NCBI RefSeq assembly: GCF_022690685.1
Contig: NZ_JALCYY010000010.1
Coordinates: 1-64,000 of the forward strand
DNA from: Anaeromyxobacter terrae
Lineage (GTDB): Bacteria; Myxococcota; Myxococcia; Myxococcales; Anaeromyxobacteraceae
Length of the DNA: 64,000 nucleotides
Direction of reading: 5' to 3'
Shown here: piece by piece, positions 16,729 through 62,267 of the stretch
How positions within the stretch are numbered: the first letter of the stretch is position 1
Layout: every line of letters begins with the position of its first letter
The notes under the pieces: generated by a model
Databases searched by the model: none
Told to the model about the DNA's origin: nothing
What the model saw: the letters and a program-made list of their open reading frames with translations, nothing else
Translations under genes and position numbers: made by a program

Positions 16729-17119
16729 CGGTCCCGAGCCCGAGCCCGAGCCCGACCTCGACCCGACCTCGACCTCGACCTCGTCGCTCGCCGCAGAGCC
16801 CCAATCCCTCCCCGCCCGCAGCGCGCCGCCCCATGTGGCGGGACCTCGCGCCCGCAGGCGGGCCACTGGACGCGGTAGGCACCGCCCCGACCCACGGATC
16901 GCAATGCAACGCGGTCGGCCGCAGCGCCCTCGCCCATGTGCAGCCAACGCTCGCAGCCCCGCGTTGCCGGCGGCGTCTGCGGACGGCACCGCCCCCCGTA
17001 CCTTGTCCCCGTCCATCGTGGCCCGCCGAGGACGTGAGGTGCCGCCCCAGGCGGCGCGCCACGGTGACCTCGCCCACGGCGATGTCGGCCAGAGCGACCC
17101 CGCCCCCGACCTCGCCGCG

Positions 17120-17263
17120 GACCTCGACCTCGACCTCGACCTCGACCCCGACCCCGACCCCGACCCCGACCTCGACCTCGACCTCGACCTCGACCTCGAC
17201 CTCGACCCCGACCCCGACCTCGACCCCGACCCCGACCTCGACCTCGACCTCGACCTCGACCTC
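17120..17263. repeat. GACCTC/GACCCC hexanucleotide array A
   Basis: About 24 tandem hexamers GACCTC or GACCCC in head-to-tail order. Within it (17146-17167) four CCCC runs are separated by GA, so the minus strand reads G4-TC-G4-TC-G4-TC-G4, a canonical G-quadruplex pattern. The array ends about 97 bp before the malQ start. Confidence 0.85.
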
Positions 17264-44140: not shown

Positions 44141-44393
44141 CGACCGCGACCGCGACCGACCCCGACCTCGACCCCGACCCCGACCTCGACCTCGACCTCG
44201 ACCTCGACCTCGACCTCGACCTCGACCCCGACCCCGACCCCGACCGCGACCGCGACCGCGACCTCGACCTCGACCTCGACCTCGACCTCGACCTCGACCT
44301 CGACCTCGACCTCGACCTCGACCTCGACGCGACCTCGACGCGACCTCGACGCGACCTCGACCTCGACCTCGACCTCGACCTCGACCTCGACTG
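44141..44393. repeat. GACCTC-type hexanucleotide array B
   Basis: About 42 head-to-tail hexamers (GACCTC, with GACCCC and GACCGC variants, and three GCGACCTCGAC irregularities near the right end). It starts at the aldo/keto reductase stop and ends about 26 bp before the IS element. It is the same motif as at 17120-17263. Both strands read as spurious open frames of repeated dipeptides. Confidence 0.88.
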
Positions 44394-44411: not shown

Positions 44412-45587
44412 TTACACCTCAGACCGGGAGCTTGGGTGACACTTTCTTGGCCAGCTCGGCCTGACGAAGGTCGGCTCCTTGGCGCGGCCGTTCACTGTTC
44501 CGAGGTGTACCGGGCCGAACATCGCGCGCCAGATCCCGTCGTCCGTCTCGTTCAGCCCAACCCACTCGCCTGCGAGGCACTCCGAAACGAAGAAGCGCTC
44601 GCCCCTCCACTTGATGCTTCCGTTGTTCGCGACGAGGCGACGCTCCCATTCGCCTGGGTACTCGGGCGGGCGAAGCGGGCACGGGTAGCTGCGCGGGGAC
44701 GTGGAGTAGACGCTCGCGGGCGGGCGCTGCTCGAGCGCTTCGTGGGGGCGCTCCTCGTTGAACTCGCGCCTGAAGCGGTCGAACGCGAGCTGCTGCTCGA
44801 ACATCGTCGGTTGTGGCGGCTTCGTCGTCTGCTGCTTCAGCGTGCGGTGCATCCGCTCGTGACGACCGTTCTGCTGGGGCTTTCCCGGCTCGATGCGCTC
44901 CGGCCGAATGCCGAGTTTCACCCACCAGACCGCGAGCCGCGAGAGCCCGCCTGCGCCCAACGTCGCAAATGGCGAGCCGTTGTCGGAGCGCATTGCGAGC
45001 GGCAAGCCGTACTCGACGAACGCCGCGTCGTACACGGGCTGTACGAGCGCGGTGTTCTCCGCCTCGAGCGCCTCGCACCTCAGCAGGAACCTGCTGTGCG
45101 CGTCCGTTAGCGTCAACGGGTGGCAGCGCACGCCGTTGCCGAGCCGGAAGTGGCCCTTGAAATCCGTACACCAGACCGCGTTCGGCGAGTCGCATTCTGC
45201 GAACGGCTGGTTCGATGCATCGACCCGGCGCCGTCGCCGCCGCTGACGGACCAAACCGTGCTTTTCTAGAATCCTGCCGATGGTCGAAGCCGCAGGCGGA
45301 TCGGTGCGGACGACGTGCTCAGCCATCCAGGCCTGAATCTTCCTCGGTCCCCAGTACGGGTAACGTCGACGTACCGCGAGCACCTGCGCGACGACGCTGA
45401 TTGGCAGCGCATGCGGGTGTGGACTAGGAACGGGATCGCGATCCAGCAGAGCAGCTCGGCCGCCTTCGTGGAACCGCGCTAGCCACTTGTACGCGGTCTT
45501 TCGGCTGATCCCGAAGGACCTACTCAGCGCGGCGATGTTCGCATCGCGGCTCAGCGCCAGCTTCACGAACTGTTCGCGTTCGTCCAT
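44412..45587 (-). CDS. IS481-family transposase
   Basis: DDE transposase of 391 residues. The ATG at 45587 begins MDEREQFVKLALSRDANIAALSR, a helix-turn-helix (SFGISRKTAYKWLARF) typical of IS481. The rve integrase core follows with Asp in AVWCTDFKGHF, Asp in AMRSDNGSPFA and Glu in QQNGRHERMHRTLK; AYKWLARFHEGGRAAL and NEERPHEALEQRPPASVY are further hallmarks. The catalytic triad is complete, so the gene looks functional. The coding frame runs a few codons past the left inverted repeat before reaching TAA at 44412. Confidence 0.93.
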   Translation of the reverse strand: MDEREQFVKLALSRDANIAALSRSFGISRKTAYKWLARFHEGGRAALLDRDPVPSPHPHALPISVVAQVLAVRRRYPYWGPRKIQAWMAEHVVRTDPPAASTIGRILEKHGLVRQRRRRRRVDASNQPFAECDSPNAVWCTDFKGHFRLGNGVRCHPLTLTDAHSRFLLRCEALEAENTALVQPVYDAAFVEYGLPLAMRSDNGSPFATLGAGGLSRLAVWWVKLGIRPERIEPGKPQQNGRHERMHRTLKQQTTKPPQPTMFEQQLAFDRFRREFNEERPHEALEQRPPASVYSTSPRSYPCPLRPPEYPGEWERRLVANNGSIKWRGERFFVSECLAGEWVGLNETDDGIWRAMFGPVHLGTVNGRAKEPTFVRPSWPRKCHPSSRSEV

Positions 45588-45678
45588 GCGACAGGTCTCT
45601 TTCCACGGCACTCGGGCCACCTCCCAGGCGGAGGTGTTACCCGAGCTCCCGGTCTGACCTGTCACCCAAGTACCCGGT
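44419..45678. mobile_element. IS481-family insertion sequence
   Basis: About 1.25 kb with the single transposase gene. The left end (44419-44442) matches, inverted, 45634-45657 at 22 of 24 positions (core ACCGGGAGCT). A second copy of the end sequence lies further out on the right (45660-45678, 17 of 19 against 44423-44441). So the right side carries two tandem end-like repeats and the exact outer boundary is uncertain. No target-site duplication could be fixed. Hexamer repeats flank both sides, which suggests insertion into or next to such an array. Confidence 0.8.
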
Positions 45679-46489
45679 TTGTACCGACCTCGACCTCGAC
45701 CGCCACCCTCGAGCTCGAGCGCGGCAAGCCCTTCCACTTCCCCGCCCGCAGCGCGCCGCCCCACGTGGCGGGACCTCGCGCCCGCAGGCGGGCCACTGGA
45801 CGCGGTAGGCACCGCCCCGACCCACGGACCGCAATGCAACGCGGTTGGCCTAGGCGACATCGCCCATGCGCAGCCCCCGCCCGCAGCCCCGCGTTGCCGG
45901 CGGCGTCTGGCGGACGGCACCGCCCCCCGTACCTTGTCCCCGTCCATCGTGGCCCGCCGAGGACAGCGCTGCTCGCCTGGGCTGAGCCCGTCGCGAGGCG
46001 CACGATGGCGTCGCCGAGGCGGGCACACGAGGACCGAGCAGCGCAGGCGTGCCTGTAAGGCACGTCGAGCAGCGCAGGGACGAGTCTGCCCGCCGCAGGC
46101 AGCTAGCGTGCGCCGCAGCAGGGATTCAGCCCAGGCGCGCAGCGCGTTGGGTCCCGTCCCGGCGGCGCGCCAAGGTGACGTCAGCCGCGGCGATGTCGGC
46201 CAGAACGACCCCGACCCCGACCTCACTATTCGTAAACGGATCACGCTCGCCAACCAAGGCCAGGCGGCCCACCCGCCGGCGCCGCTCGCGCGTCCACCCG
46301 CGTCCGGTGGCGCACGTTGATCCACAGCAAGCGAGAGTGAGCCGCACTGGGCGTGTGCGCACAGGTTTCGTCAAGCACCATGCCGGAGGGGGACGTCCCC
46401 ATTCGCCCCGCACCTGGATTGATCGCTGTCATCTGTGATCTTGCGACACGACCTAAGTTCGGGATCCTACGAGCGGGGAGGGTTCCTTC
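45679..46489. repeat. Composite intergenic repeat, copy B, and cytochrome upstream region
   Basis: After a few GACCTC hexamers (45686-45705) comes the core repeat (about 45738-45963), nearly identical to 16817-17030. A unique 185-bp stretch follows (about 45964-46150), then the end of the core (about 46150-46223). The last 170 bp before 46490 hold the cytochrome promoter region: TTGCGA (46441) and ATCCTA (46464), spaced 17 bp, are a possible weak -35/-10 pair, and GGGGAGGG (46475-46482) is the ribosome site. No gene is supported. Confidence 0.65.
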
Positions 46490-49400
46490 ATGCAGTCCGG
46501 ACTCGGGTCTTTCGCGCGGCCGCGCCTACCTGCGCTGCTGCTGTGCGTCTCCGCGATCTCCGCGGGTCCGCTCGCCTGCGGCAACGAGCGAAAGGTCCAC
46601 GGCGAGGACACCGCGAGCTGCTCGCGCTGCCACGGGAGCGCCGACAACGCGGCGCCTCCGCTCTCGGTCACGGGCGGCCGCGACGCGAGCGACCCCGTCG
46701 TCGGTGCGCACCAGGTCCACCTGCAGGGCGGCCCGCTGCGCGCTCCGCTCGCGTGCTCCGACTGCCACGTGGTCCCGCAGACGGCCGACGCCGCCGGCCA
46801 CATCGACGGGGAGCACGGCACGGTGACCTTCGGCGCGCTCGCCCTCACGGGCGGCGCGTCGCCTCGATGGACCCGCGAGACCGGAACCTGCAGCGGCACC
46901 TACTGCCACGGCGCGACGCTCGGCGGGGGCGCGCTCGTGGCGCCCGTCTGGAACCGCGGCGCAGGCGAGGCCGCGTGCGGTGCGTGCCACGGGCTCCCTC
47001 CGCCGAAGCCTCACGTGCAGAACCCCGACTGCGGGCGCTGCCACCTCGGCTACACCGCCACGTCCGTCGTGGCCGCCACGCACGTGAACGGCAAGGTCGA
47101 CGTGAAGCCGCTCGAGTGCAACACCTGCCACGGCTCCGCGACGAGCTCGGCTCCCCCCATCGGGACCGCCGGCGAGACCGCCACGACGAGCCTCGCGGTC
47201 GGCGCGCACCAGGAGCACCTGCGGGACGGCGCGTTCCGCGCGCGGCTCGCCTGCGGCGACTGCCACGTCGTCCCCACCGTCGCCCTCCACGCCAACGGCA
47301 CCGTCGACCTCGTCTGGGGCGCGCTCGCGACCGCGGACGGCGCGAGCCCGTCCTTCAGCCCCGCGACCGCGACGTGCGCCTCGACCTACTGCCATGGCGC
47401 GACGCTCGCCGGCGGCGGCCTGCTCACCGCGCCCGTCTGGACGCGGGTCGGCGAGGGCCAGGCCTCCTGCGGCGCCTGCCACGCCGCGCCTCCGCCGCTG
47501 CCGCACCCGCAGCGGAGCGACTGCGGCCGCTGCCACCCGGGCGCGTTGACCGCGGACGGATCCGCCATCGACGTCGCCGGTGGCAAGCACATCGACGGCC
47601 ACCTCGATCTCGTGCCGCTCACCTGCACGCTGTGCCACGGCACCGACGGCGTGAACGCGGCCCCGCCCGTGGGCACGCACGGCGAGACCGCCACGTCCGA
47701 GATCGCGGTCGGCGCGCACCAGAAGCACGTGCGCGACGGCGCGATCCGCAAGGCCGTCGCCTGCGCCGAGTGCCACGTCGAGCCGGCGGTGCCGCTGCAC
47801 TCGAACGGCGAGGTGGACCTCGCCTGGGGCGCGCTCGCCGCCGCGAAGGGGACCACGCCCGCGTGGACCCGCGCCAGCGCGACCTGCAGCTCGACGTACT
47901 GTCACGGCGCGACGCTCGGCGGGGGCGGCACGACGAAGACCCCGGTCTGGACCGCCGTGTCCGACGGTCCGACCGCGTGCGGCTCCTGCCACGGCGCGCC
48001 ACCCGCGCTGCCGCACCCGCAGAGCTCCGACTGCTCGCGCTGCCACTCCGGGACCGTCCTCGCGACGGGCGCGATCGACGTCGCCGGCGGCCGGCACATC
48101 GACGGCATCGTCCAGGTGGACGGCGGCGGGTGCACCGCCTGCCACGGTACGCAGGGCGTGAACCCCGCGCCGCCGTTCGGCACGCGCGGCGAGACGCTGA
48201 CCACCCAGCGCGCGGTGGGCGCGCATCAGAAGCACGTCGTCGACGGGCGGATCCGCAAGGCGTTCGCGTGCAACGACTGCCACGCCCTGGTGACCGACCT
48301 GGGCGAGCACGCGAATGGCTCCATCTCGATGCCCTTCACGGGGCTCGCGTCGCAGGGCACGACGCCCATGTGGAACGGCGCGACGTGCAGCTCGACCTAC
48401 TGCCACGGCGCGACGCTCGCGGCGGGCGGCTCGACGCCGGCGCCGACCTGGACCGTGGTCTCCACGGGCCCGACGACGTGCAGCTCCTGCCACGGCGCGC
48501 CGCCGCCCTTGCCGCACCCGCAGAGCGCGGACTGCAGCCGCTGCCACAAAGGCACGGTGCTCGCGACCGGTGAGATCGACGTCGCAGGCGGGAAGCACCT
48601 CGACGGCACGGTCCAGGTGGACGGCGGCGGGTGCACGGCCTGCCACGGCACCGAGGGCGTGAACCCGGCGCCGCCGGTCGGCACGAAGGGCGAGACGCTG
48701 ACGACCCAGCGCGCGGTGGGTGCGCACCAGAAGCACGTGGTGGACGGCGCGATCCGGAAGGCGTTCGCGTGCGGCGCCTGCCACGAGCCGGTCTCCGATC
48801 TCACCCACGTGAACGGTACGATCCCGCTGCCGTTCACCGGCCTCGCCTCGAGCGGCACGACGCCCAGCTGGAACGGCGCGAGCTGCGCCTCGACCTACTG
48901 CCACGGCGCGACGCTCGCCGCGGGCGGCTCGACGACGGCGCCCACCTGGACGGTGGTCTCCGCGGGTCCGACGGCGTGCGACTCCTGCCACGGGGCGCCG
49001 CCTCCGCTGCCTCACCCGCAGAGCACCGACTGCAGCCGCTGCCACTCGGGGACGGTGCTCGCGACCGGCGGGATCGACCTCGCGGGAGGCAAGCACATCG
49101 ACGGCACGGTCCAGGTGGACGGCGGCGGGTGCACGGTCTGCCACGGCACCGAGGGCAAGAACCCCGCGCCGCCGCTCGGCACGAAGGGCGAGACGCTGAC
49201 GACCCAGCGCGCGGTGGGCGCGCACCAGAAGCACGTGGTGGACGGCGCGATCCGCAAGGCGTTCGCCTGTAGCGCCTGCCACGAGCCGGTCTCCGATCTC
49301 ACCCACGTGAATGGCTCGATCCCGCTGCCGTTCACCGGCCTCGCCTCGAGCGGCACGACGCCCAGCTGGAACGGCGCGAGCTGCGCCTCGACTTACTGCC

Positions 49401-52400
49401 ACGGCGCGACGCTCGCCGCGGGCGGCTCGACGACGGCGCCCACCTGGACGGTGGTCTCCGCGGGTCCGACGGCGTGCGGCTCCTGCCACGGCGCGCCGCC
49501 CCCCTTGCCGCACCCGCAGCTCGCGGACTGCTCGCGCTGCCACTCCGGGACGGTCCTCGCGACCGGCGCCATCGACGTCGCCGGCGGAAAGCACATCGAC
49601 GGCACGGTCCAGGTGGATGGCGGCGGCTGCACCCTGTGCCACGGCACCGAGGGCAAGAACCCCGCGCCACCGCTCGGCACGAAGGGCGAGACGCTGACGA
49701 CCCAGCGCGCGGTGGGCGCGCACCAGAAGCACGTCGTCGACGGCGCGATCCGCAAGGGGTTCGGCTGCAGCGCCTGCCACGAGCCGGTGACCGACGGCTC
49801 CCACGTGGACGACGTGATCCCGCTGCCCTTCACGGGGCTCGCCTCCCAGGGGACGGCCCCGGCCTGGAACGGCACCACGTGCGCCTCGACCTACTGCCAC
49901 GGCGCGACGCTCGCCGCGGGAGGGAGCACCCCGACGCCGACGTGGACCCAGGTGAGCGCGGGACAGACCGCGTGCAACGCCTGCCACGGCGCGCCGCCGA
50001 CCACCGGGAACCACCCGCAGAGCGCGGATTGCGCGGCCTGCCATCCGGAGACGGTGAACGCGGACGGAACGATCAACGTGGCCGGCGGTCGGCACATCGA
50101 CGGTACGGTGCAGGTGGCGGGCGGCTGCAGCCTGTGCCACGGCTCGGACGCGAACCCGGCGCCGCCGGTCGGGACGAAGGGTGAGACGGCCACGACGACC
50201 CTGGCGGTGGGCGCCCACCAGTCGCACGTCCGAGCGGGCCCGCTCTTCGGGGCGATGACCTGCGACGCGTGCCACCAGTTCTCCGACGCGACGCACCGCA
50301 ACGGCGTCGCGGATCTCACCTGGGGGACGCTGGCCACGAAGGGAGGCGCGATCCCGAGGTTCGACGCGGCGACGGCGACCTGTGCCGCCACTTACTGCCA
50401 CGGCGCGACGCTCGGCGCGGGCGGCTCGCTCACGACGCCGACCTGGAACAAGGTCGACGGTACGCAGGCAGCCTGCGGCACCTGCCACGGCGCGCCGCCG
50501 ACCACCGGGAACCACCCGCAGAGCGCGGACTGCGCGGCCTGCCATCCGGAGACGGTGAACGCGGACGGCACGATCAACGTGGCCGGCGGTCGGCACATCG
50601 ACGGAAGCGTGCAGGTGGCGGGCGGCTGCAGCCTGTGCCACGGCTCGGACGCGAACCCGGCGCCGCCGGTTGGCACGAAGGGTGAGACGGCCACGACGAC
50701 CCTGGCGGTGGGCGCCCACCAGTCGCACGTCCGAGCGGGCCCGCTTTTCGGGGCGATGACCTGCGACGCGTGCCACCAGTTCTCGGACGCGACCCACCGC
50801 AACGGCAGAGTCGATCTCACCTGGGGGACGCTGGCCAGCATGGACGGCGCGGTCCCGAGCTTCGATCCGGCCGCCATCACGTGCACGAACTACTGCCACG
50901 GCCAGACGCTCGGCGCGGACGGCTCGCTCACGACGCCGAAGTGGACGACGGTGGACGGCACGCAGGCGGCCTGCGGCACCTGCCACGGGAACCCGCCGCA
51001 GTCGGCCCACCCGGACAACCCGCTCTGCAACTCTTGCCACCCGTTCACGGTCGCGTTCGATGGCACCATCGACGTCGCGGGCGGCCGCCACATCGACGGG
51101 AACGTCGACGTGGCTGGCCTGACGTGCAGCGCATGCCACGGCTCGACGGACAACCCGGCGCCTCCGGTCGGCACCCGGCAGGAGACGGCCACCACGACGC
51201 GCGCCGTCGGCGCGCACCAGGCGCACGTGCGCGCCGGCGCGCTGCGCAACGCCCTCGAGTGCAGGGATTGCCACGTCGTACCCACCGAGACGATCCACTC
51301 GAACGGCGTCGTGGACCTCGCCTGGGGCCGGCTCGCCACGTCGGACGGGGCGGTTCCGGGCTTCGATCCCGACGCCCTCACGTGCACCAACTACTGCCAC
51401 GGCCAGACGCTCGACGCAGGCGGCTCGCTCACGGCGCCGAGGTGGACGACGGTGGACGGAACGCAGGCGGCCTGCGGCACCTGCCATGGCGCGCCGCCGC
51501 CCGCGCCGCACCCCGCCTCCTCGCCCACGGGCTGCGCGCGGTGCCACCCGGACACCGTGACGGATCAGGGCACGATCGATCTCGCCGGTGGCCGCCACAT
51601 CGACGGGAAGCTCGACGTGTCCGGCGCGTGCGGCGACTGCCATCCGGTCCCGGGCGCGAGCGGCGCCCACCTCGTGCACGCGGCGTTTCCGACGCCCGAC
51701 GTGCCCGGGTACGGCGATCTGCGCATCCTCGAGGCCTACGCGCCGGGCGGGGGCTCCGACTACGAGTTCGGCTGCGGCAACTGCCACCCGCTCGACCCGG
51801 CGAAGCACATGGACCGTGAGGTCGAGGTGGAGCTCACGCCGGCGGGCGCGGCGACGGGCTCGCTGCGCGCGCGGAACGCGCCGGACGCCGCGTACGACGC
51901 GGGGACGGGCCGGTGCACCGGCGTGTACTGCCACTCCTCGGGCCAGGCGCTCCCGGTGTACGCGACGGCGCCGGGCTGGAGGTCGAACGCGCAGCTCGGC
52001 TGCGACGGCTGCCACGGCAACCCGCCGAGCTACGCGTCCGGCGGCGCGGGCGCGTCCGACGCGAACGCCCACATCGGGCTCACCAACCAGGGGCGCGAGT
52101 TCGGCCACTACGTCGGCCTGGGCGGTCCTGCGCACGCGAGCAAGCACGGCAGCGCAGCGCCGGGCGAGGCGGCCGCGCCGATCACCTGCCAGACGTGTCA
52201 CTACGCGACGACCGATCCGACGGCGACCGGGCCCTCGAAGTTCTACTGGCTCGACACGACCGGCAGCTACGTGCTCGCGGGCGGCGATCCCGCCCGGCTG
52301 ACGGACCCGCGCTGGAAGGCGACGCAGTGCGGGACCTGTCACGGAGCCGGCGGCGCCCCGGTCCTGCAGGGCAAGGTCCTGCCGCTCACCCACGTGAACG

Positions 52401-52720
52401 GCCGCCGCGACGTGGTGTTCGACCCGCGCACGACGCTGCCGTCGATCCCGGGTCTCCCGCCCGCGCCGGAGACGCCCACGCGGCCGTACTGGGTCACGCC
52501 TGCGCGGTTCTGCGAGGCCGTCCCGGCCGGCGCGGTCATCGAGGGCACGACGCTCTCGATCGAGCTCTCGGGCGCCGCGTACGACCCGGCGACGAAGCGC
52601 TGCTCCGGGGTGGCCTGTCACCTCGGCGACGCGCCGGTGTGGGGCCGGCAGTACCTCGCGAACCCCACGTCGGGCACCGCGAGCTGCTGCCGCTGCCACT
52701 CGAGCCGCTGCGGCCCGTGA
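46490..52720 (+). CDS. Giant multiheme c-type cytochrome (about 58 haem motifs)
   Basis: Exported cytochrome of 2,076 residues. The ATG at 46490 follows GGGGAGGG. The signal peptide ends at a possible lipobox GPLAC (Cys30), with Pro at -3, so lipoprotein status is probable but not certain. By hand count there are 58 haem motifs: 46 CxxCH, 10 CxxxxCH (for example CSGTYCH and CASTYCH) and 2 CxxxCH (CTNYCH). From residue 44 to about 1713 they occur in ten tandem units of 166-169 residues, each with the order CxxCH, CxxCH, CxxxxCH, CxxCH, CxxCH. Each unit also carries AVGAHQxHV, HxNG and IDVAGGxHIDG, whose His residues may be distal haem ligands. A non-repetitive tail holds eight more motifs, including CTGVYCH and CSGVACH. 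The pairing of CxxxxCH with CxxCH is known from Geobacter outer-surface cytochromes (TIGR01904-type). Likely role is long-range extracellular electron transfer. Confidence 0.93.
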   Translation: MQSGLGSFARPRLPALLLCVSAISAGPLACGNERKVHGEDTASCSRCHGSADNAAPPLSVTGGRDASDPVVGAHQVHLQGGPLRAPLACSDCHVVPQTADAAGHIDGEHGTVTFGALALTGGASPRWTRETGTCSGTYCHGATLGGGALVAPVWNRGAGEAACGACHGLPPPKPHVQNPDCGRCHLGYTATSVVAATHVNGKVDVKPLECNTCHGSATSSAPPIGTAGETATTSLAVGAHQEHLRDGAFRARLACGDCHVVPTVALHANGTVDLVWGALATADGASPSFSPATATCASTYCHGATLAGGGLLTAPVWTRVGEGQASCGACHAAPPPLPHPQRSDCGRCHPGALTADGSAIDVAGGKHIDGHLDLVPLTCTLCHGTDGVNAAPPVGTHGETATSEIAVGAHQKHVRDGAIRKAVACAECHVEPAVPLHSNGEVDLAWGALAAAKGTTPAWTRASATCSSTYCHGATLGGGGTTKTPVWTAVSDGPTACGSCHGAPPALPHPQSSDCSRCHSGTVLATGAIDVAGGRHIDGIVQVDGGGCTACHGTQGVNPAPPFGTRGETLTTQRAVGAHQKHVVDGRIRKAFACNDCHALVTDLGEHANGSISMPFTGLASQGTTPMWNGATCSSTYCHGATLAAGGSTPAPTWTVVSTGPTTCSSCHGAPPPLPHPQSADCSRCHKGTVLATGEIDVAGGKHLDGTVQVDGGGCTACHGTEGVNPAPPVGTKGETLTTQRAVGAHQKHVVDGAIRKAFACGACHEPVSDLTHVNGTIPLPFTGLASSGTTPSWNGASCASTYCHGATLAAGGSTTAPTWTVVSAGPTACDSCHGAPPPLPHPQSTDCSRCHSGTVLATGGIDLAGGKHIDGTVQVDGGGCTVCHGTEGKNPAPPLGTKGETLTTQRAVGAHQKHVVDGAIRKAFACSACHEPVSDLTHVNGSIPLPFTGLASSGTTPSWNGASCASTYCHGATLAAGGSTTAPTWTVVSAGPTACGSCHGAPPPLPHPQLADCSRCHSGTVLATGAIDVAGGKHIDGTVQVDGGGCTLCHGTEGKNPAPPLGTKGETLTTQRAVGAHQKHVVDGAIRKGFGCSACHEPVTDGSHVDDVIPLPFTGLASQGTAPAWNGTTCASTYCHGATLAAGGSTPTPTWTQVSAGQTACNACHGAPPTTGNHPQSADCAACHPETVNADGTINVAGGRHIDGTVQVAGGCSLCHGSDANPAPPVGTKGETATTTLAVGAHQSHVRAGPLFGAMTCDACHQFSDATHRNGVADLTWGTLATKGGAIPRFDAATATCAATYCHGATLGAGGSLTTPTWNKVDGTQAACGTCHGAPPTTGNHPQSADCAACHPETVNADGTINVAGGRHIDGSVQVAGGCSLCHGSDANPAPPVGTKGETATTTLAVGAHQSHVRAGPLFGAMTCDACHQFSDATHRNGRVDLTWGTLASMDGAVPSFDPAAITCTNYCHGQTLGADGSLTTPKWTTVDGTQAACGTCHGNPPQSAHPDNPLCNSCHPFTVAFDGTIDVAGGRHIDGNVDVAGLTCSACHGSTDNPAPPVGTRQETATTTRAVGAHQAHVRAGALRNALECRDCHVVPTETIHSNGVVDLAWGRLATSDGAVPGFDPDALTCTNYCHGQTLDAGGSLTAPRWTTVDGTQAACGTCHGAPPPAPHPASSPTGCARCHPDTVTDQGTIDLAGGRHIDGKLDVSGACGDCHPVPGASGAHLVHAAFPTPDVPGYGDLRILEAYAPGGGSDYEFGCGNCHPLDPAKHMDREVEVELTPAGAATGSLRARNAPDAAYDAGTGRCTGVYCHSSGQALPVYATAPGWRSNAQLGCDGCHGNPPSYASGGAGASDANAHIGLTNQGREFGHYVGLGGPAHASKHGSAAPGEAAAPITCQTCHYATTDPTATGPSKFYWLDTTGSYVLAGGDPARLTDPRWKATQCGTCHGAGGAPVLQGKVLPLTHVNGRRDVVFDPRTTLPSIPGLPPAPETPTRPYWVTPARFCEAVPAGAVIEGTTLSIELSGAAYDPATKRCSGVACHLGDAPVWGRQYLANPTSGTASCCRCHSSRCGP
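46619..51628. repeat. Ten tandem repeats of about 500 bp inside the cytochrome gene
   Basis: Units start at about 46619, 47117, 47624, 48131, 48632, 49130, 49628, 50126, 50627 and 51125, each 498-507 bp and in frame. Units 5-7 resemble each other most closely, and units 8 and 9 are almost identical over at least 330 bp at an offset of 501 bp, as expected for recent duplication or gene conversion. Confidence 0.9.
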
Positions 52721-53789: not shown

Positions 53790-54668
53790 CTACAGCCCGG
53801 AGAGCCGCTCCGCGCCCGCGTAGACGTTCATGCGGCCCGGGCGGACGAAGCCGGCGAGCGTGAGTCCGGCCGCTCGGGCGAGCTCGATCGCGAGCGACGT
53901 CGGCGCCGACACGGTGGCGACGATGGGGATCCGCGCGCGCGCGGCCTTCTGCACGATCTCCATGCCCGCCCGGCTGCTCACGGTGAGGAGCGCGGGCGCC
54001 GCCGCGGGCGCGCCGGCGGCCGCCTCCGCGCGGGCGAGGAGGAGCGCGCCGATCACCTTGTCGACCGCGTTGTGACGGCCGACGTCCTCGTGCGCGGCGA
54101 CGAGCGCGCCGTCCCGCGTCCAGAGCGCGGCGACGTGCGTCCCGCCTGTCTCCTCGAACACCGGCTGGTGGTCGCGGAGCGCCGCGATCTTCTCGCCGAC
54201 GAGGGCGGCCGGGATCGGGGCGATCGGCTCCGGGGCGACGAGCCCGGCCACGAGATCCTCGACGGCGCGGCGCCCGCACACGCCGCAGGCGGAGCTCGAG
54301 GCGACGCTGCGCCGGGAGCCGTCGATCCGCTCCCAGTCGATGCGGGCGCCCGAGGCCGGGGCGAGCTCGATCGCGCTGCCGTACGCCTCGTCGCCGGGGC
54401 GGCCGCAGTGGTACACGGCGCTGAAGTCGCTCGCGGACGCGATGATCCCCTCCGAAAACAGGAAGCCGAGCGCGAGCCGGTGGTCGTCCCCCGGCGTGCG
54501 CATCAGCACCCCGACCGTCTCCCCGGCGATGCGCACCTCGAGCGGCTCCTCGAGCGCGACGACATCGGAGGCGGCGCCGTCGCCGGGCCGCACGACGGAG
54601 GTCCCCGTGGTCCGCCCGTCGACCGCCGCGCGCCGCGCCGCGCGCGCGGGCGCCGGATCCTCGCTCAT
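53790..54668 (-). CDS. fdhD: Formate dehydrogenase accessory sulfurtransferase FdhD
   Basis: FdhD of 292 residues, needed to sulfurate the molybdenum/tungsten bis-MGD cofactor of formate dehydrogenase using sulfur from IscS. The active CxxC (Cys128, Cys131) lies in SSSACGVCGRR; LGFLFSEGII, HEDVGRHNAVDKVIG and TVSSRAGMEIVQKAARA are conserved family blocks. The start is fixed by ATGA overlap with the stop codon of the upstream sensor gene (ATG at 54668). A GTG at 54689 would give seven more residues. The gene serves the Sec-containing formate dehydrogenase at 59164, some 4.5 kb away on the other strand. Confidence 0.95.
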   Translation of the reverse strand: MSEDPAPARAARRAAVDGRTTGTSVVRPGDGAASDVVALEEPLEVRIAGETVGVLMRTPGDDHRLALGFLFSEGIIASASDFSAVYHCGRPGDEAYGSAIELAPASGARIDWERIDGSRRSVASSSACGVCGRRAVEDLVAGLVAPEPIAPIPAALVGEKIAALRDHQPVFEETGGTHVAALWTRDGALVAAHEDVGRHNAVDKVIGALLLARAEAAAGAPAAAPALLTVSSRAGMEIVQKAARARIPIVATVSAPTSLAIELARAAGLTLAGFVRPGRMNVYAGAERLSGL

Positions 54669-56650
54669 CGGACGAGACACGGCCGGCACTCCGGACCCGG
54701 ATCGCCCTCACCGCCGCCCGGGCCGTCCACCGCGCGCCTCACGGCGGTCTGGTCGGTCACGACCTCGAGCGCCCCCACCACCCGTCCCGCGCCGTCGCGG
54801 AGCGGGACGGCCGAGTAGAGGATCTGGAGGTCGAGGCCTTCGGGGTGCGCGTCCGTCTCGCTGCTCACCTCGCGGTCCTCCGTCATCGCGCGGGCGCAGG
54901 CGCAGCGCGCCGTCCTGCAGTCGCCCTTGCGGTAGCTGTCGTAGCACTTCGTCCCGACGAGCTCCTGCGGCGTTCGACCGAGGAGGCTCGCGCCGGTCTG
55001 GTTCATGTAGCGGATGTCGAACTCGGGGCTCACGATCATGGCGGGCGCGGGCATGGCGTCGAGGTGCCCCACGAGCGTCGAGAGCGTGGCGTTCACACCC
55101 TCCACCACCTCCCGGAAGTCCCCCTGGTGCCGCGACGGATCCGCGCGCTCGGAGAGCCGGCCCTCGACGGCGGCGTCGGCGAGGGCCCCCGTCTCCTCGA
55201 CGAGCCGGCGCAGCTCGGACTGCGCCGACAGGACGCTCCGGGTCAGCTCGTCGCGGTCGGAGCGGAGCACGAGCGGGGTCGAGAGATCGCCGCGGGCGAG
55301 GGCCGCCGCGCCCCGGGCGACCTCCTGGAGGTAGCGGATCGTCCCGCGGAACGCCTCGGCGAGGCGCCCGACCTCGTCGCCCGAGCGGTAGGTGACCTCC
55401 TGCTGGACGTCGCCCTCGGCGATGCGCTCGGCGGCGACGGCCATCGCCTCGAGCGGCGCGGCGAGCCGGCTCGCCGCCTTGCGCGCCGCCCAGATGCTCG
55501 CGAGCAGGAGCAGGAGGCCCACGCCGACGACGGTGACGGCCGAGGCCGCGAGCGAGGACTGCACCACGCGGAGCGGCGCCACCGCCTCGTCGCGGTCCAT
55601 CTCGGCGACGATCACCCAGTCCCACGGCGCGAAGTAGGCGACCGCCGCGACCCGCTCGCGCGGTGCGCGCCCGGTCTCCGGGCGGGAGAAGGACACGCGC
55701 ACGGTGTCGCCGTTCGCCTCCATCGCCGCGCGCACGAGCGCCTGGACGTACGCCTCGCCGCGGGCGTCGCGCGCGTCCCACGCGTCCTCGCCGTCGGCGT
55801 GTCCCGGGGGCGGGATGAGGTAGTGGCCGCGCTGGTTCCCGCTCGCGCCGAGCGCGTACATCGTGCCCGTCTCGCCGATCCGCGAGGCGGCCACGCCGGC
55901 GCGGATGCCCTCGAGGGAGTCCTGGCGCAGCCCGATGAAGAGCATCCCCGCGATCCGGCCGCTCGCGTCGCGGATCGGCTCGTAGCCGGAGAGGTACCAG
56001 CGGTCGAGCACCCGCGCGCGTCCCCGGTACGTCTCGCCGCGGAGCACCGTGGAGACGACCGGGTTCGGCTTGCCGTCGGGATCCACCGCCGGGATGTAGG
56101 TGCCGATCGCCCGGTGGCCGTTCCCGTCCGGCACCGTGGTCGCGACGCGGAGCATGTCGCCCCGCTCGTTCATCCGCTGGAAGAGCGTGGCCTCCGCGCC
56201 GACGAGCTCGCGGACGCGATCGACGAGCAGGCTCGGCCGCGCCGGCTCGGCGTTCTGGCCCGCCCAGGCGCCGCCGAGGAGCAGCTTCGGAAGCACCGCC
56301 TCGCCGGCGCTGCGGTCGAGCTGGTTCACCGCCGTCCAGCGCACCGTCTCCCGCGAGAACGACAGCGGCCCGAGCCGCTCCATCTGATCGCGGGCGACGC
56401 GCAGGCTGCGGGGCACCTGTTGCCAGAGCTCGCGGTGAGCGGACTCGCAGAGCGTGCGCAGGTCGCGGGCGGCCCGCGTGAGCCCCTCCTCCGCGAGCCG
56501 GCCCATGCTCGCCTCGACGTCCCCGGCGATGCGGCTGCGCTGGGCCGCGAACACGACGAGGAACGCGGCGACGAGCAGCGCGGTGGGCAGCAGGGCGACG
56601 ACCAGGATCTTGCGGCGCAGGTCGAGGCCGCTCGTTCGCATCTGGAACAC
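54665..56650 (-). CDS. Cache-HAMP-PAS sensor protein without output domain
   Basis: Membrane sensor of about 661 residues. TM1 (about 14-35) and TM2 (about 367-388) bracket a long periplasmic Cache-type domain that includes the GRARVLDRWYLSGYEPIRDASGRIAGMLFIGL and APWDWVIVAEMD segments. In the cytoplasm a HAMP (about 388-441) is followed by one or two further HAMP-like segments (443-525). A PAS domain (about 530-635) comes next, with a cysteine cluster, KCYDSYRKGDCRTARCACARAM (Cys569, 578, 583, 585), seen in PAS domains of chemoreceptors. Normally a methyl-accepting or kinase domain would follow, but the protein ends in a Gly-rich tail with a further CxxC (655, 658). Its stop overlaps the fdhD start. 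The GTG at 56650 follows GGAGGA; ATG 56641 is an alternative. Confidence 0.85.
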   Translation of the reverse strand: MFQMRTSGLDLRRKILVVALLPTALLVAAFLVVFAAQRSRIAGDVEASMGRLAEEGLTRAARDLRTLCESAHRELWQQVPRSLRVARDQMERLGPLSFSRETVRWTAVNQLDRSAGEAVLPKLLLGGAWAGQNAEPARPSLLVDRVRELVGAEATLFQRMNERGDMLRVATTVPDGNGHRAIGTYIPAVDPDGKPNPVVSTVLRGETYRGRARVLDRWYLSGYEPIRDASGRIAGMLFIGLRQDSLEGIRAGVAASRIGETGTMYALGASGNQRGHYLIPPPGHADGEDAWDARDARGEAYVQALVRAAMEANGDTVRVSFSRPETGRAPRERVAAVAYFAPWDWVIVAEMDRDEAVAPLRVVQSSLAASAVTVVGVGLLLLLASIWAARKAASRLAAPLEAMAVAAERIAEGDVQQEVTYRSGDEVGRLAEAFRGTIRYLQEVARGAAALARGDLSTPLVLRSDRDELTRSVLSAQSELRRLVEETGALADAAVEGRLSERADPSRHQGDFREVVEGVNATLSTLVGHLDAMPAPAMIVSPEFDIRYMNQTGASLLGRTPQELVGTKCYDSYRKGDCRTARCACARAMTEDREVSSETDAHPEGLDLQILYSAVPLRDGAGRVVGALEVVTDQTAVRRAVDGPGGGEGDPGPECRPCLVR

Positions 56651-56826
56651 GTCTCCTCCGGTGAGGGCTCGTCGACCTCGCCTGCGAGAACCGAGCCGTT
56701 GCGGCAGCCGCCCGGGCCGGCGTCAGGCCGCACTTTCGTGAGCCGCGCGCCCGCAGAACCTGTAAGTAAAGGGATATACCGCGAAGCGCGCCGTCCTGCG
56801 AGGCGCGCCGCCGTCGGTGCGCCCTG

Positions 56827-58848
56827 ATGCTCGTGCTCCCGGATGCAACAGACCGCTCGTCACTCCGGCGGCGCCTCGACCGTGCGTGGGAGCGCTTTCT
56901 CCGTGACGGCGAGCTGGACGGCGTGCGGCCCGAGATCGCGCGCTCGTGGACGCGGGTGCGCGACGTGTACCACGTCGAGCCGGGGCTCCGCCGCGCGCCG
57001 CTCGATCCCCGCGGCGAGGTCCTGCGCCGCCGCGGCGAGGACGAGACCTTCGAGCTCGCGCGTCCGGTGCTGGCGCAGCTCTCGACCCGGCTCCGCGACG
57101 CGGGGCACGCCCTCGCGCTCCTCGACGGGGAGGGGCTCGTCCTGTCCGTCGGCGGCGACCCGCAGCTCGTCGCCCGCCTCGCGGAGCTGAACCTCTGCCC
57201 CGGCGCGAGCTGGCGCGAGGAGGCGGCCGGCACGAACGCGGCAGGCACGGCGCTCGCCGAGCGGCGCGCGATGGAGGTCTTCGCCTCGGAGCACTTCCTC
57301 GAGGTGCTCCACCCCTTCACGAGCGCCGCGGCGCCCATCGTCGCGCCCGCGTCCGGCGAGGTCGCGGGGCTCGTCCAGATCACCGGCCCGTGGGACGCGA
57401 GCGAGCCCCAGGGCCTCGTCGCCGCGGCGGCGATCGCGGCAGCGATCGAGGAGCGGCTCCGCGCTCGCCAGGAGCTGCGGGACGAGCTCGTCCGCCACGC
57501 GCTCCGCGCCGCCCGGACGTCGGGCGAGGCGGTGGTCGCGGTCGACGCGCGCGGGCGCGTCCTCGCGACGAACGACGCCGCGCGCCGCAGGCTCGCGTTC
57601 GAGGACGGCGAGCTCCCGCGCGCGACGCGCGAGCGGCTCGTCGCGGCCCTCGCGGGCGGGGAGGCGTCCCGGGACGAGGAGCTCACGGTGGAGTGGCCGG
57701 GGACGGGGGACGAGCGCCGCAGGGTGACCTGCTCCGTGGTCGCGCACGAGCGGCGGCCGGTGGGCGCGGTCCTGCACGTCCCCGCGCCCTCGGGGCCGCG
57801 CGCGGCGCGCGCGGCGGCGCGCCAGCGGCTCACGACGCGCTACGGCCTCGAGGCGATCCTCGGGGAGTCGCTCCGGCTGCGGACGGCGCTCGATCTCGCC
57901 GAGGTCGCGGCCCGGAACGATCTGCCGGTGGTCCTGCACGGCGAGTCCGGCACGGGGAAGGAGCTCTTCGCGCACGGGATCCACGCCGGCGGCGACCGGG
58001 CCGGCGCGCCGTTCGTGGTGCTGAACTGCGGCGCCATCCCGGCCGCGCTCGTCGAGGCGGAGCTGTTCGGCTACGAGCCCGGGACCTTCACCGGCGCGCA
58101 GCGGGAGGGCAAGGCGGGCAAGTTCGAGGAGGCCGACGGCGGGACGCTCTTCCTCGACGAGGTCAGCGAGCTCCCGCTCCAGGCGCAGACGGCGCTCCTG
58201 CGCGTGGTCCAGGAGGCCGAGGTGGTCCGCCTGGGCGGGAGCGCTCCCCGGCACGTGGACGTGCGGGTGGTGGCCGCGACGAACCGGCGGCTCTACGACC
58301 AGGTGGAGGCCGGCCGCTTCCGCCAGGACCTCTACTTCCGCCTGAACGTGCTCCACGTGGACATCCCGCCGCTGCGGGATCGGAGCGAGGACGTGCCGCT
58401 CCTCGCCCGCGCGTTCCTGCGCGAGGCGGAGGAGCGGATGGGCCGCGATGCGCTCGAGCTGTCGGACGCCGCGAAGGCGCTGCTCCTCGCCCACCCGTGG
58501 CCGGGGAACGTCCGCGAGCTCAAGAACGTGATCATGCGCGCGGCCGCGGTGGTCGTGGGGTCGCGCATCGAGCCCGCCGACCTGCGGCTCGCGCCGGCGC
58601 GCGGGGTCGCACCGCTCCGCGTGGACGCGGCGCCGCCGCGCCCGTACGTGGAGGTCCGCTCGTCCGAGCCGCCCGCCGATGCAGCGGCCGTGGCCGACGC
58701 CGCCGCCGAGCCGGAGGGGCCGGAGCGGGACGAGCTCGTCGCCGCGCTGGACGCGTGCGGCTGGAACATCGCGCGGACGGCGACGTCGCTCGGCGTCTCG
58801 CGGATGACGCTCTACCGCCGCCTGCGGAAGTTCGGCATCACCAGGTAG
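56827..58848 (+). CDS. Sigma-54-dependent activator, AcoR type
   Basis: Enhancer-binding protein of 673 residues. The N-terminal GAF-like sensory region (about 45-200) has GASWREEAAGTNAAGTALAERRAMEVFASEHF, a hallmark of the AcoR subfamily. A PAS-like segment follows (about 230-310). The AAA+ domain shows Walker A GESGTGKE (372-379), GTFTGA (419-424; a change from the canonical GAFTGA sigma-54 contact loop), Walker B GTLFLDEVSELP and the Arg fingers. A Fis-type HTH closes the protein (ALDACGWNIARTATSLGVSRMTLYRRLRKFGI). It is directly upstream of a -24/-12 promoter and twin palindromes in front of the formate dehydrogenase gene, and divergent from the sensor/fdhD pair, so it is the probable activator of formate metabolism. 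Confidence 0.92.
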   Translation: MLVLPDATDRSSLRRRLDRAWERFLRDGELDGVRPEIARSWTRVRDVYHVEPGLRRAPLDPRGEVLRRRGEDETFELARPVLAQLSTRLRDAGHALALLDGEGLVLSVGGDPQLVARLAELNLCPGASWREEAAGTNAAGTALAERRAMEVFASEHFLEVLHPFTSAAAPIVAPASGEVAGLVQITGPWDASEPQGLVAAAAIAAAIEERLRARQELRDELVRHALRAARTSGEAVVAVDARGRVLATNDAARRRLAFEDGELPRATRERLVAALAGGEASRDEELTVEWPGTGDERRRVTCSVVAHERRPVGAVLHVPAPSGPRAARAAARQRLTTRYGLEAILGESLRLRTALDLAEVAARNDLPVVLHGESGTGKELFAHGIHAGGDRAGAPFVVLNCGAIPAALVEAELFGYEPGTFTGAQREGKAGKFEEADGGTLFLDEVSELPLQAQTALLRVVQEAEVVRLGGSAPRHVDVRVVAATNRRLYDQVEAGRFRQDLYFRLNVLHVDIPPLRDRSEDVPLLARAFLREAEERMGRDALELSDAAKALLLAHPWPGNVRELKNVIMRAAAVVVGSRIEPADLRLAPARGVAPLRVDAAPPRPYVEVRSSEPPADAAAVADAAAEPEGPERDELVAALDACGWNIARTATSLGVSRMTLYRRLRKFGITR

Positions 58849-58871
58849 CCCCCCCCGTCCGCGATCACCGC

Positions 58872-58892
58872 CCGTCGATGCCGCATCGACGG
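58872..58892. terminator. Perfect palindrome after the activator gene
   Basis: CCGTCGATG-CCG-CATCGACGG, a 9-bp perfect stem with 3-nt loop, 23 bp after the regulator stop. It could be a terminator stem (no T-run) or another protein-binding site. Confidence 0.4.
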
Positions 58893-58894
58893 TG

Positions 58895-58916
58895 TGTCAC
58901 GCGCCGTCGCGTGACA
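58895..58916. promoter_or_regulatory. Probable activator-binding palindrome 1
   Basis: TGTCACGC-N6-GCGTGACA, a perfect 8-bp inverted repeat. It lies 112 bp upstream of the sigma-54 promoter, the usual distance for an upstream activator sequence. Confidence 0.6.
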
Positions 58917-58937
58917 TGTCACACGCGCATCGTGACA
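58917..58937. promoter_or_regulatory. Probable activator-binding palindrome 2
   Basis: TGTCAC-N9-GTGACA directly adjoins palindrome 1; a further half-site GTGAC is at 58941-58945. Pairs of such sites are typical for cooperative binding of enhancer-binding proteins. Confidence 0.55.
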
Positions 58938-59028
58938 CCTGTGACGCTCGCGCTGGGATTTCCCGCGCAAGCCTGTCGCTCGCTCGGCCTCCGGAGCGCG
59001 GCGGCGCATCCGTTTCGCGTCTCTTCCC

Positions 59029-59044
59029 TGGCAGGTGTCTTGCT
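59029..59044 (+). promoter_or_regulatory. Sigma-54 promoter of the formate dehydrogenase operon
   Basis: TGGCAG-N5-TTGCT with the invariant GG and GC separated by exactly 10 bp. Transcription would start near 59055, leaving a leader of about 109 nt before the ATG at 59164. Confidence 0.8.
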
Positions 59045-59163
59045 CTGGCGCCTTCGCGACGCACGAAGGCCAAAAAAGACCTGAGCAGTCAGGTACATGC
59101 GGCGGTCGTCGCGAAGGCTTCGAAGTGAGCGGCAGTCGACAGAAGTCACCGGAAAGGGAAGCG

Positions 59164-62100
59164 ATGAGCATCAGCAGAAGAAACTGGCTCAAGTTGACGG
59201 CCGGCGGCGGCGCCGGCCTCGCGCTCGCCGAGCTCGGCTTCAGCGCGGCGAAGGTCCAGGCGGCGACGGGGCACCTGAAGCTCACGGGCGCGAAGCAGTT
59301 CACGACCGCCTGTAACTTCTGCTCCTGCGGCTGCGGCATGGTCTGCAACGTGGTGGACGGCAAGCTCGTCAACCTCGAGGGCGATCCGGACCACGTCATC
59401 AACCAGGGCGCGCTGTGCTCGAAGGGCGCGGCGATGCAGGCGACCCACGAGTCCGACCGGCGCGTGAAGGCGCCGATGTACCGGGCGCCGGGCTCGGACC
59501 GCTGGCAGGAGATCAGCTGGGACGAGGCGCTCGAGAAGCTCGCGCGCAAGGTGAAGGACGTCCGCGACTCGACCTGGATCGCCACCGAGAAGGACGGCGA
59601 CGTCGAGTATCCGGTCAACCGCACCGACGCGATCGGCTTCCTCGGCGGCGCGCAGAACACCAACGAGGAGTGCTACCTCTGGAACAAGATGGGGAGGCTC
59701 TTCGGGACGAACTTCGTCGAGCACCAGGCCCGACTTTGACACAGCCCCACGGTCCCCAGTCTGGGGGCCACGTTCGGCCGTGGCGCGATGACGAACCACT
59801 GGGCGGATCTGCAGAACGCCAAGGTGTTCCTCATCGAGGGCAGCAACGCCGCCGAGAACCACGTGATGTCGATGAAGTGGATCCGGAAGGCGCAGGCGAA
59901 GGGCGCGAAGATCATCCACGTCGACCCGCGCTTCAACCGCACCTCGTCGATCGCGGACATCTACGCGCGCATCCGCCCCGGCGCTGACATCGCGTTCCTG
60001 GGCGCGGTCATCCACCACGTCCTCGAGAACGCGCTCTACGACGTCGAGTACGTGAAGCTGCACACGAACGCGCTCCTCCTCGCGAAGGACGAGTTCGGCC
60101 TCGACGACGGCGTCTTCACCGGCTACCACGAGGACAAGCACAAGTACGACACCGCCTCGTGGGCGTACGACCTCGACGCCGCGACGCAGAAGCCGAAGAA
60201 GGCGGCGAGCCTCGACGACCCGCGCTGCGTGTTCTCGAAGCTGAAGCGGCACTTCGCGCGCTACACGCCCGAGGTCGCCGAGGAGATCTCGGGCGTCCCG
60301 GCGGAGCAGATCAAGCTCATCGCCGAGACGTTCGCGAACAACCGGCCGGGCACGATCCTGTACGCGCTCGGGATGACGCAGCACACGGTCGGCATCCAGA
60401 ACATCCGCTGCTACGGCATCCTCCAGCTGCTCCTCGGCAACATCGGCAAGGCCGGCGGCGGCGTGAACGCGCTGCGCGGCGAGCCGAACGTCCAGGGCGC
60501 CTGCGACATGTCCGTCCTGAACGGCTACATGTTCGGCTACATCAACGCCCCGAACCACAACCACCCGACGCTCGAGGCGTGGACGAAGGACAACGGCACG
60601 TTCCGCCGGAAGTTCACCGTCAACGGCCTCAAGGCGTGGTTCGGCGACAACGCCACCGCCGAGAACGACTTCGGCTGGAGGTGGCTCCCGAAGAAGAACG
60701 GCGCGAAGGACTACACCGTCTTCGGGATGATCGACGACGCGTACGCCGGGAAGCTGAAGCTCCTCTGGGCCGTCGGGCAGAACCCGATGGTCACGAACCC
60801 GAACCTGAACTACGTGCACGAGGCGCTGTCGAAGCTCGACATGCTCGTCGTGCAGGAGCTCTGGGACACGGAGACGGCGAGCTTCTGGCAGCGGCCGGGC
60901 GCCGACCCGAAGTCGATCCAGACCGAGGTGCTCCTCCTCCCCGCCGCGTACTTCATGGAGAAGGAGGGCACGATCAGCGGCTCCGGCCGCCTCGTGCAGT
61001 GGCGCTACGCGGCGGTGAAGCCGCCCGGCCAGGCGAAGGCGGACCTCGAGATCATCGACACGGTCTTCCGCAAGGTCCGGGGCCTCTACGCCGGCTCGAC
61101 CGATCCGAAGGACGAGCCGCTCACGAAGGCGGTCTGGAACTACCCCGCCCAGAACACGGCCGAGGCGGTGCTCCAGGAGATCAGCGGCCGCGTGCTCGCC
61201 GAGGTGACGCTGCCCGACGGCAAGGTGCTGCAGCCCGGCGCCTTCGTCGCCGGCATCGGCCAGCTCCAGGCGGACGGCTCGACGTCCTCGGGCGCCTGGA
61301 TCTACGCGGGCGTCTTCGGCGGCGGGAAGAACCTCTCGAAGCGCCGCGACGCGAAGACCGATCCCTCGGGCCTCGGGATGTTCCCCGGCTTCGCCTGGAC
61401 CTGGCCCGGCAACATGAAGATCCTCTACAACCGCGCGTCCTGCGACGCGGACGGCAGGCCCTGGGCCGGCACGACCCCGCTCGTCTGGTGGGACGCGACC
61501 GAGAAGAAGTGGAAGGGCGTCGACACGCCGGACGTGCCGGACGCCACGAAGGGCCCGGACACGCCGGAGGGCCAGCGCGCGTTCCGCATGAACGGCGAGG
61601 GCATCGGCCGGCTCATGGCGGCGGTCTACAAGGATCCTGACGCGAAGGAGAAGGAGAAGGGGCTGCCGCGCGACGGCTCGTACGTGCCGAAGGACGGCCC
61701 GTTCCCCGAGTTCTACGAGCCCATCGAGAGCCCGGTCGCGAACGTGCTGCACCCGAAGGCGCAGCACAACCCGTGCGTGAAGTACCCGCGCGTCCCGGGC
61801 AAGCAGCCCGTCGGCACGGCGAAGGACTTCCCGTACGTCCTCATGACGTCCTCCATCGCGGAGCACTGGTGCGCCGGGTCCACGACCCGCAACGTGCCGT
61901 GGCTCAACGAGCTGCAGCCGGAGTGCGTCGTGGAGCTGCCGACCCAGCTCGCGGAGAAGCTGCGGGTGAAGGGCGGCGACAAGGTGCGGGTCTCGTCGGC
62001 GCGCGGTGAGATGCTCGTGAAGGCCGTCGTCACGAAGCGCATGCAGGTCATGAGGATCGCCGGCCAGGACGTGCCCGTCGTGTGGATGCCCTACAACTGG

Positions 62101-62238
62101 GGCTTCAAGGGGCTCTCCACCGGTCCGTCGACCAACGTGCTGACCATCGACGCCGTCGACCCGGGCGCCGGCACGCAGGAGACCAAGGCCTGCCTCGTCA
62201 ACGTGGTGCGCGTGGAGGAGGCGGTGGCGCAGCGCTAG
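59164..62238 (+). CDS. fdnG: Selenocysteine formate dehydrogenase, catalytic subunit
   Basis: Molybdopterin formate dehydrogenase of 1,024 residues; oxidises formate to CO2. It is one gene, not two: the frame continues through TGA at 59737-59739, which encodes Sec192 in EHQARLUHSPTVPSLGATFGRGAM, at the position known from E. coli FdnG (Sec196). The ATG at 59164 follows GGAAAGGGAAG. The N-terminus has a Tat signal (SRRNWLKL), so the enzyme faces the periplasm. Ligands for one [4Fe-4S] cluster are in ACNFCSCGCGMVC and ALCSKG. The C-terminal molybdopterin-dinucleotide-binding domain includes SIAEHWCAGSTTRNVPW and ELPTQLAEKLRVKGGDKVRV. It is followed after 29 bp by the fused electron-transfer subunit and is probably driven by the sigma-54 promoter at 59029. 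Confidence 0.96.
59737..59739 (+). other. UGA codon read as selenocysteine (Sec192)
   Basis: In-frame TGA in a fully conserved context (EHQARL-U-HSPTV). The flanking frames are identical, and the codons on both sides encode family-typical sequence, so premature termination can be excluded as the main reading. Confidence 0.95.
59751..59769 (+). promoter_or_regulatory. SECIS-like hairpin
   Basis: GGTCCCC-AGTCT-GGGGGCC, a 7-bp stem (one wobble) with an AGUCU loop resembling the GGUCU loop of bacterial SECIS elements. It starts 12 nt after the UGA. Outer pairing of CCACGG (59747) with CCGTGG (59778) may extend it. Confidence 0.7.
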
Positions 62239-62267
62239 CCGGCTGCGACGCCTCGAAAGGAACGACC

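Follow-up and report, generated by a model that had tools for sequence, protein, structure and literature searches.

A giant c-type cytochrome of Anaeromyxobacter terrae with 58 haem motifs arranged as ten five-haem units and an eight-haem cap

The locus and its haem motifs

The gene considered here lies in the first 64,000 nucleotides of contig NZ_JALCYY010000010.1 of Anaeromyxobacter terrae (assembly GCF_022690685.1, a 5.65 Mb draft in 142 contigs), a stretch referred to below as the window, whose GC content is 74%. On its forward strand, an open reading frame (ORF) encodes a c-type cytochrome with 58 haem motifs, most of them organized in an array of five-haem units that is followed by a conserved cap. 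The features of the gene, in window coordinates, are as follows:

46279..46489, + strand: upstream stretch kept in A. soli (blastn), likely to bear the promoter
46490..52720, + strand: 58-haem c-type cytochrome gene, from the ORF list (ATG start, 2076 amino acids (aa); coordinates include the stop codon)
46490..46579, + strand: probable lipoprotein-type signal, a hydrophobic stretch ending at Cys30 (GPLAC)
46616..47113, + strand: five-haem unit 1
47114..47620, + strand: five-haem unit 2
47621..48127, + strand: five-haem unit 3
48128..48628, + strand: five-haem unit 4
48629..49126, + strand: five-haem unit 5
49127..49624, + strand: five-haem unit 6 (94% aa identity with unit 5)
49625..50122, + strand: five-haem unit 7
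50123..50623, + strand: five-haem unit 8
50624..51121, + strand: five-haem unit 9, third motif CxxxCH
51122..51625, + strand: five-haem unit 10, third motif CxxxCH
51626..52717, + strand: C-terminal eight-haem cap, 364 aa, with 8 haems and 8 further His
47368..50230, + strand: DNA tandem repeat, period 498, 5.7 copies, 81% matches

The haem motifs comprise 46 CxxCH, 2 CxxxCH and 10 CxxxxCH, i.e., 58 distinct sites; the original prediction, made from the letters of the sequence, had reached the same numbers by hand, and its density of one haem per about 36 residues is likewise exact over the 2076 aa. Each of the 58 CH dipeptides of the protein falls inside a haem motif, and 500 shuffled versions of the protein contain 1.08 motifs on average and 4 at most. 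The remaining residues include 62 other His and 7 Met. A two-motif haem pattern run over the same genome gave one match elsewhere and none at the cytochrome gene, and profiles were used instead.

The upstream DNA aligns with that of A. soli by blastn (about 79% identity over 292 columns, extending into the gene), and the ATG start is supported by the fact that this DNA is conserved yet in a different frame. Neighbouring unit copies are up to 93-96% identical at the DNA level. The longest exact direct repeat inside the gene is 85 bp, below common read lengths, which makes a collapsed or inflated array unlikely. A 2374-aa ORF runs antisense across the gene; no support for it was found, against domains and selection for the forward frame, and it was set aside as a by-product of high GC.

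Ten five-haem units and a cap

The units follow the motif order CxxCH, CxxCH, CxxxxCH, CxxCH, CxxCH, except for the third motif of the last two. Their lengths had been put at 166-169 aa, and the measured values agree (166, 169, 169, 167, 166, 166, 166, 167, 166 and 168 aa, from unit 1 to unit 10). It had also been proposed that the 58 haems are housed in ten five-haem units; the total and the number of units both hold, but the units account for 50 haems and the other 8 belong to a separate C-terminal module.

Domain searches concur with a modular haem protein, as originally proposed. The protein matches Pfam Cytochrome_C7 (E value 4.4e-62), scores 86.8 with Pfam PF09698 (GSu_C4xC__C2xCH; cut-off 21.7) and matches NCBIfam TIGR01904 with an E of 5.3e-135 and 439 bits against a cut-off of 27, with 12 stretches above threshold. 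Among 48 varied units, 46 match Cytochrome_C7 and 45 match PF09698. The units also carry one extra invariant His per haem.

Predicted haem ligands

Five His outside the haem motifs are invariant in 28 of 28 regular units from the window protein and its two orthologues. Two of them lie in VGAHQxH, one follows the second motif (mostly as HxN), one is in P-H and the last is mostly found in GGxHIDG. The pattern extends to a wider set obtained from fetched relatives, in which 343 of 361 near-full-length profile matches have exactly five motifs and were thinned to 173 non-redundant units; of these, 173, 173, 173, 171 and 173 carry the respective His. The cap follows the same logic, with eight haems in 20 of 20 aligned caps and eight further His, six of which are present in all 20, and the other two in 17 and 19.

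This one-to-one match between haems and conserved further His strongly suggests that each haem is bound and has two His ligands; full bis-His ligation of all haems is thus strongly predicted. In addition, His/Met haems cannot be common, given the 7 Met in 2076 aa. The CxxxCH sites of the window protein are CxxxxCH at equal positions in one of the orthologues (that of genome G007), and this exchange suggests that both forms bind haem.

Orthologues and selection

Syntenic orthologues are found in A. soli SG29 (G005), with 48 motifs, and in G007, with 58 motifs; the latter, which also has ten units, lies in a genome of one contig of 5,277,990 bp. Gene order is the same at all three loci: aldo/keto reductase, cytochrome, universal stress protein, FdhD, Cache/HAMP/PAS sensor and sigma-54 activator. 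Comparison of the orthologues gives ratios of nonsynonymous to synonymous substitution rates (dN/dS) of 0.26-0.48 for position-matched units and for the cap, values that indicate purifying selection on both.

Variation in unit number

The A. soli protein differs from that of the window by two units, and therefore by exactly ten haems. When the 28 units are placed in a tree, the first units cluster by position across species (support 100/100), as do the second units with weaker support (82/96), while the third units sit side by side at an unresolved fork. Among the middle units, grouping is partly by species, namely five G007 units (98/93) and two G005 units (99/90). Over all unit labels, species clustering is weak (12 changes versus a shuffled mean of 13.5, with 39 of 200 shuffles as low), and recent expansion within a lineage is therefore claimed just for the five-unit G007 and two-unit G005 groups. 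The array thus gains and loses whole units under purifying selection.

A search for the cap among fetched ORFs returned 27 rows, reduced to 20 distinct proteins after removal by hand of truncated or duplicate loci. Fourteen of the 20 have 8+5n haems, with n being 0, 1, 2, 3, 8 or 10. No unit is present in L054, L055 or L028, and L028 is an 801-aa frame from the window's own genome; L052, L037, L101, L036, L039 and L056 have n = 1, L041 has n = 2, L116 has n = 3, L059 (A. soli) has n = 8, and the window protein and L060 have n = 10. The 8+5n rule is not universal, since the remaining six proteins depart from it with 10, 12, 12, 12, 12 and 15 haems, and several cap proteins sit on short loci, so that some of their N-termini may be incomplete. 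A tentative explanation, which we put forward with reserve, is that of a cable 'cut to length', in which a fixed eight-haem docking cap would be combined with n interchangeable units, recombination within a genus tuning how many there are. If this were true, such variants would provide a natural 8+5n length series for measuring the scaling of conductance or of charge storage within one polypeptide.

Gene neighbourhood

The cytochrome gene and that of the universal stress protein are convergent, and the cytochrome is therefore probably transcribed alone. Genes for FdhD, the sensor, the sigma-54 activator and formate dehydrogenase-type proteins adjoin it (window 53790-64000), in an order that is kept in the orthologous loci as far as these were read. 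An operon with the formate dehydrogenase genes was considered and ruled out, as the next downstream gene is on the opposite strand.

An IS481-like transposase gene (Pfam rve and LZ_Tnp_IS481; window 44412-45681) lies between the aldo/keto reductase and cytochrome genes; its imperfect inverted ends fall near 44420-44441 and 45660-45681. Neither orthologous locus has room for it, while about 210 bp directly upstream of the cytochrome are kept. The window further contains two arrays of the hexamer CGACCT (44141-44391, 43 copies, and 17095-17263, 28 copies), and versions of this hexamer occur in the corresponding intergenic region of G005 and G007.

Relatives in the phylum

Matches to a profile of the five-haem unit were found in 62 of the 195 genomes searched in the phylum (E up to 1e-20). 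The related proteins were collected as 66 ORFs with at least 8 motifs each, from regions chosen for their long arrays; these are open frames and not called genes. Ten of them have more than 58 motifs, the largest having 94, 83 and 80. The first is a 3902-aa frame of G013 (L063:6368-18073, - strand) with 17 unit matches and a strict lipobox near its N-terminus. The other two come from more distant members of the phylum and have 14 unit matches each (L106:3803-13363, - strand, 3187 aa, and L107:6215-15583, + strand, 3123 aa).

A. terrae itself has a second giant cytochrome, on contig C132 (L025:9272-15409, - strand), an open frame of 2046 aa that contains 61 motifs. A 19-haem cytochrome comes after it, and more cytochromes, of 10-27 motifs each, are found some 25-30 kb away on this contig. 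A cytochrome of a different kind is encoded by a Lys-rich frame of 1097 aa (L066:1752-5042, - strand), which has 42 CxxCH motifs, or one haem for every 26 residues, and is not matched by the five-haem unit. Viral contigs gave 36 pattern matches, none of them a relative.

Possible role and alternative explanations

We consider it probable that this cytochrome is exported, probably lipid-anchored, and acts as a modular wire or reservoir of electrons in extracellular respiration (of metals or humic matter). This reading is based on the haem array and its ligands, on the physiology of the genus, which reduces Fe(III) and has multihaem cytochromes in large numbers (PMC2330069, PMC4245776), and on the published suggestion that large cytochromes of Anaeromyxobacter are capacitors (PMC2330069); haem loading, export, packing of the chain, direction of electron flow and physiological role are what we infer from these. 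The N-terminal lipid would probably anchor the cytochrome in a membrane, followed by ten interchangeable five-haem units, all predicted to be bis-His, and then the conserved eight-haem cap. Electrons would enter or leave at either the cap or the anchored terminus, spread over bis-His haems packed close together, and be passed on farther away, or stored while no acceptor is at hand. Reach and capacity would be set by the number of units, and changed by tandem duplication or loss of whole units. Solved cytochrome filaments have about 0.8 nm per haem, and as an estimate only, 58 haems packed in the same way could span about 45 nm.

Several observations weigh against this interpretation. The first concerns location: the original prediction had placed the protein at the cell surface because of its lipoprotein signal, and a Cys does follow the hydrophobic stretch in all three orthologues (GPLAC or GPLGC), but Pro at position -3 departs from the strict lipobox in all of them (we used the pattern that we take to be that of PROSITE PS51257). 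Ten of 12 other N-termini tried in the family do conform to it, the exceptions being a frame of G163, of uncertain start, and one of G192. As even a proper lipobox is by itself no proof that a protein faces outward, anchoring is probable and outward facing is unproven, so that the case for the surface is weaker than first stated. Second, the orthologue was seen in only 3 of 9 members of the genus, and the cytochrome is thus not essential to their lifestyle. In the other six, none of the matches listed exceeds 58% identity to the C-terminal query, and a search for the flanking aldo/keto reductase drew a blank in five of these genomes and gave 55% identity in the sixth. Third, the cytochrome seems solitary between the aldo/keto reductase and the convergent universal stress protein, near formate dehydrogenase genes, with none of the ten scanned ORFs around it coding for a porin, a pilus or secretion, and no expression data were found for the gene. 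Finally, a continuous haem chain is hypothetical, since AlphaFold gave no usable model (mean pLDDT, its confidence score, of 38.4 for three units with 14 alignment rows, and of 35.9 for 1.3 units with 16 rows).

The strongest alternative, which we nonetheless regard as rather unlikely, is that the protein never reaches the cell surface and is a periplasmic or inward-facing outer-membrane capacitor, storing electrons when acceptors run out. A storage role has been proposed for the 40-haem protein of A. dehalogenans (PMC2330069) and for GSU1996 of Geobacter sulfurreducens (PMC10138318), and would fit both the variable number of units, which suits capacity over a fixed length, and the lack of an export partner nearby. 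However, many relatives carry strict lipoboxes, and a chain of 2000 aa would be large for the periplasm if extended.

It is more doubtful still that monomers are joined end to end as filaments outside the cell, in the manner of OmcS, OmcE and OmcZ, although the regular repeats would permit a long wire. Searches of solved structures by sequence and profile gave no significant homologue. The 48-unit profile gave 3ouq (E 0.0091) and 8e5g (E 0.014) as its top matches, and the 18-unit profile gave 1aqe (E 0.0059), with 8e5g at an E of 0.09; the best phmmer match was 3ov0 (E 0.012), listed as a cytochrome c family protein, which we take to be the dodecahaem 'nanowire' GSU1996. The printed alignments consist mostly of haem motifs, and lysozyme matches were taken as noise from the Cys pattern. 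OmcS, OmcE and OmcZ gave no named match among the solved structures at E up to 1 or up to 10, depending on the search. The presence of 8e5g, presumably an archaeal cytochrome filament, among these weak matches could be read in favour of polymerization, but its E values are not significant and the other weak matches are small c3, c7 and NrfB cytochromes. Moreover, a protein that ends in a conserved cap and probably bears a lipid anchor looks like a finished monomer, and further His equal in number to the haems of each unit give no sign of the haem ligation between subunits that is described for OmcS and OmcE (PMC9473688), although OmcZ also does without it.

That most motifs do not bind haem, or that the ORF is an artefact of composition or assembly, is very improbable and largely refuted: 74% GC does yield many spurious ORFs such as the antisense frame, and the assembly is a fragmented draft, but the ligand His are conserved one to one, a ten-unit orthologue exists in a one-contig 5.28 Mb genome, exact repeats are short, and selection is purifying.

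Comparison with known systems

The kind of protein described here is already known. As judged by sequence, the cytochrome is a longer relative, of the same kind, of the 40-haem c-type cytochrome of A. dehalogenans 2CP-C (Thomas et al., 2008; PMC2330069). In G002, taken to be 2CP-C, an ORF of 1344 aa with exactly 40 motifs has seven matches to the profile of the window and A. soli units and a strict lipobox; it has fewer and less regular units, another motif string and another C-terminus, and is not an orthologue. TIGR01904 and PF09698, both named for Geobacter, cover a two-motif piece, which in the window protein, above the cut-off for both, is part of a repeated five-haem unit. GSU1996 is similar in being a single chain of c7-like repeats proposed as a wire or capacitor, but is made of three-haem domains with one His/Met haem each (PMC10138318), in contrast to the five haems, five further His and scarce Met found here.

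Other giant cytochromes are comparable by description. DSOUD_0664 of Desulfuromonas soudanensis has 69 haems and is predicted to be extracellular (PMC4914508), and a Paludibaculum metagenome-assembled genome (MAG) encodes a 112-haem cytochrome (PMC11495043); in the same source, an Anaeromyxobacteraceae MAG has 8 predicted extracellular cytochromes. The cytochromes of anaerobic methanotrophic (ANME) archaea, with 113 (PMC7082337, the highest recorded in 2020) and 86 haems (PMC9012536), likewise have very high counts per chain but carry S-layer domains, none of which was detected in the window protein by Pfam (only cytochrome families and one sub-threshold CoiA_N match). With 40-113 haems in print and 10 of 66 relatives above 58, the original placement of this protein among the larger haem counts is true, but the count is not extreme; the idea that it is exceptional was dropped in view of the 69-113 haems in print and of the 94-motif relative. 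In Pcc and Mtr conduits, a porin accompanies the cytochrome, in contrast to the ten neighbouring ORFs here. The literature covered also includes PMC10954620, PMC12545173, PMC2825233, PMC6199725, PMC11475568 and PMC12977616.

Among the open-licence papers listed by literature searches, none was noticed to describe the gene or its 8+5n series. What is new is the complete account of the ligands together with the cap-plus-units length series. Relatives that differ mainly in length could offer, in culturable soil bacteria, a testable system for the length dependence of electron transport and for the choice between wire and capacitor. Giant cytochromes are mostly known as haem counts; here, the count reduces to a cap and whole units, with a predicted ligand His for each haem.

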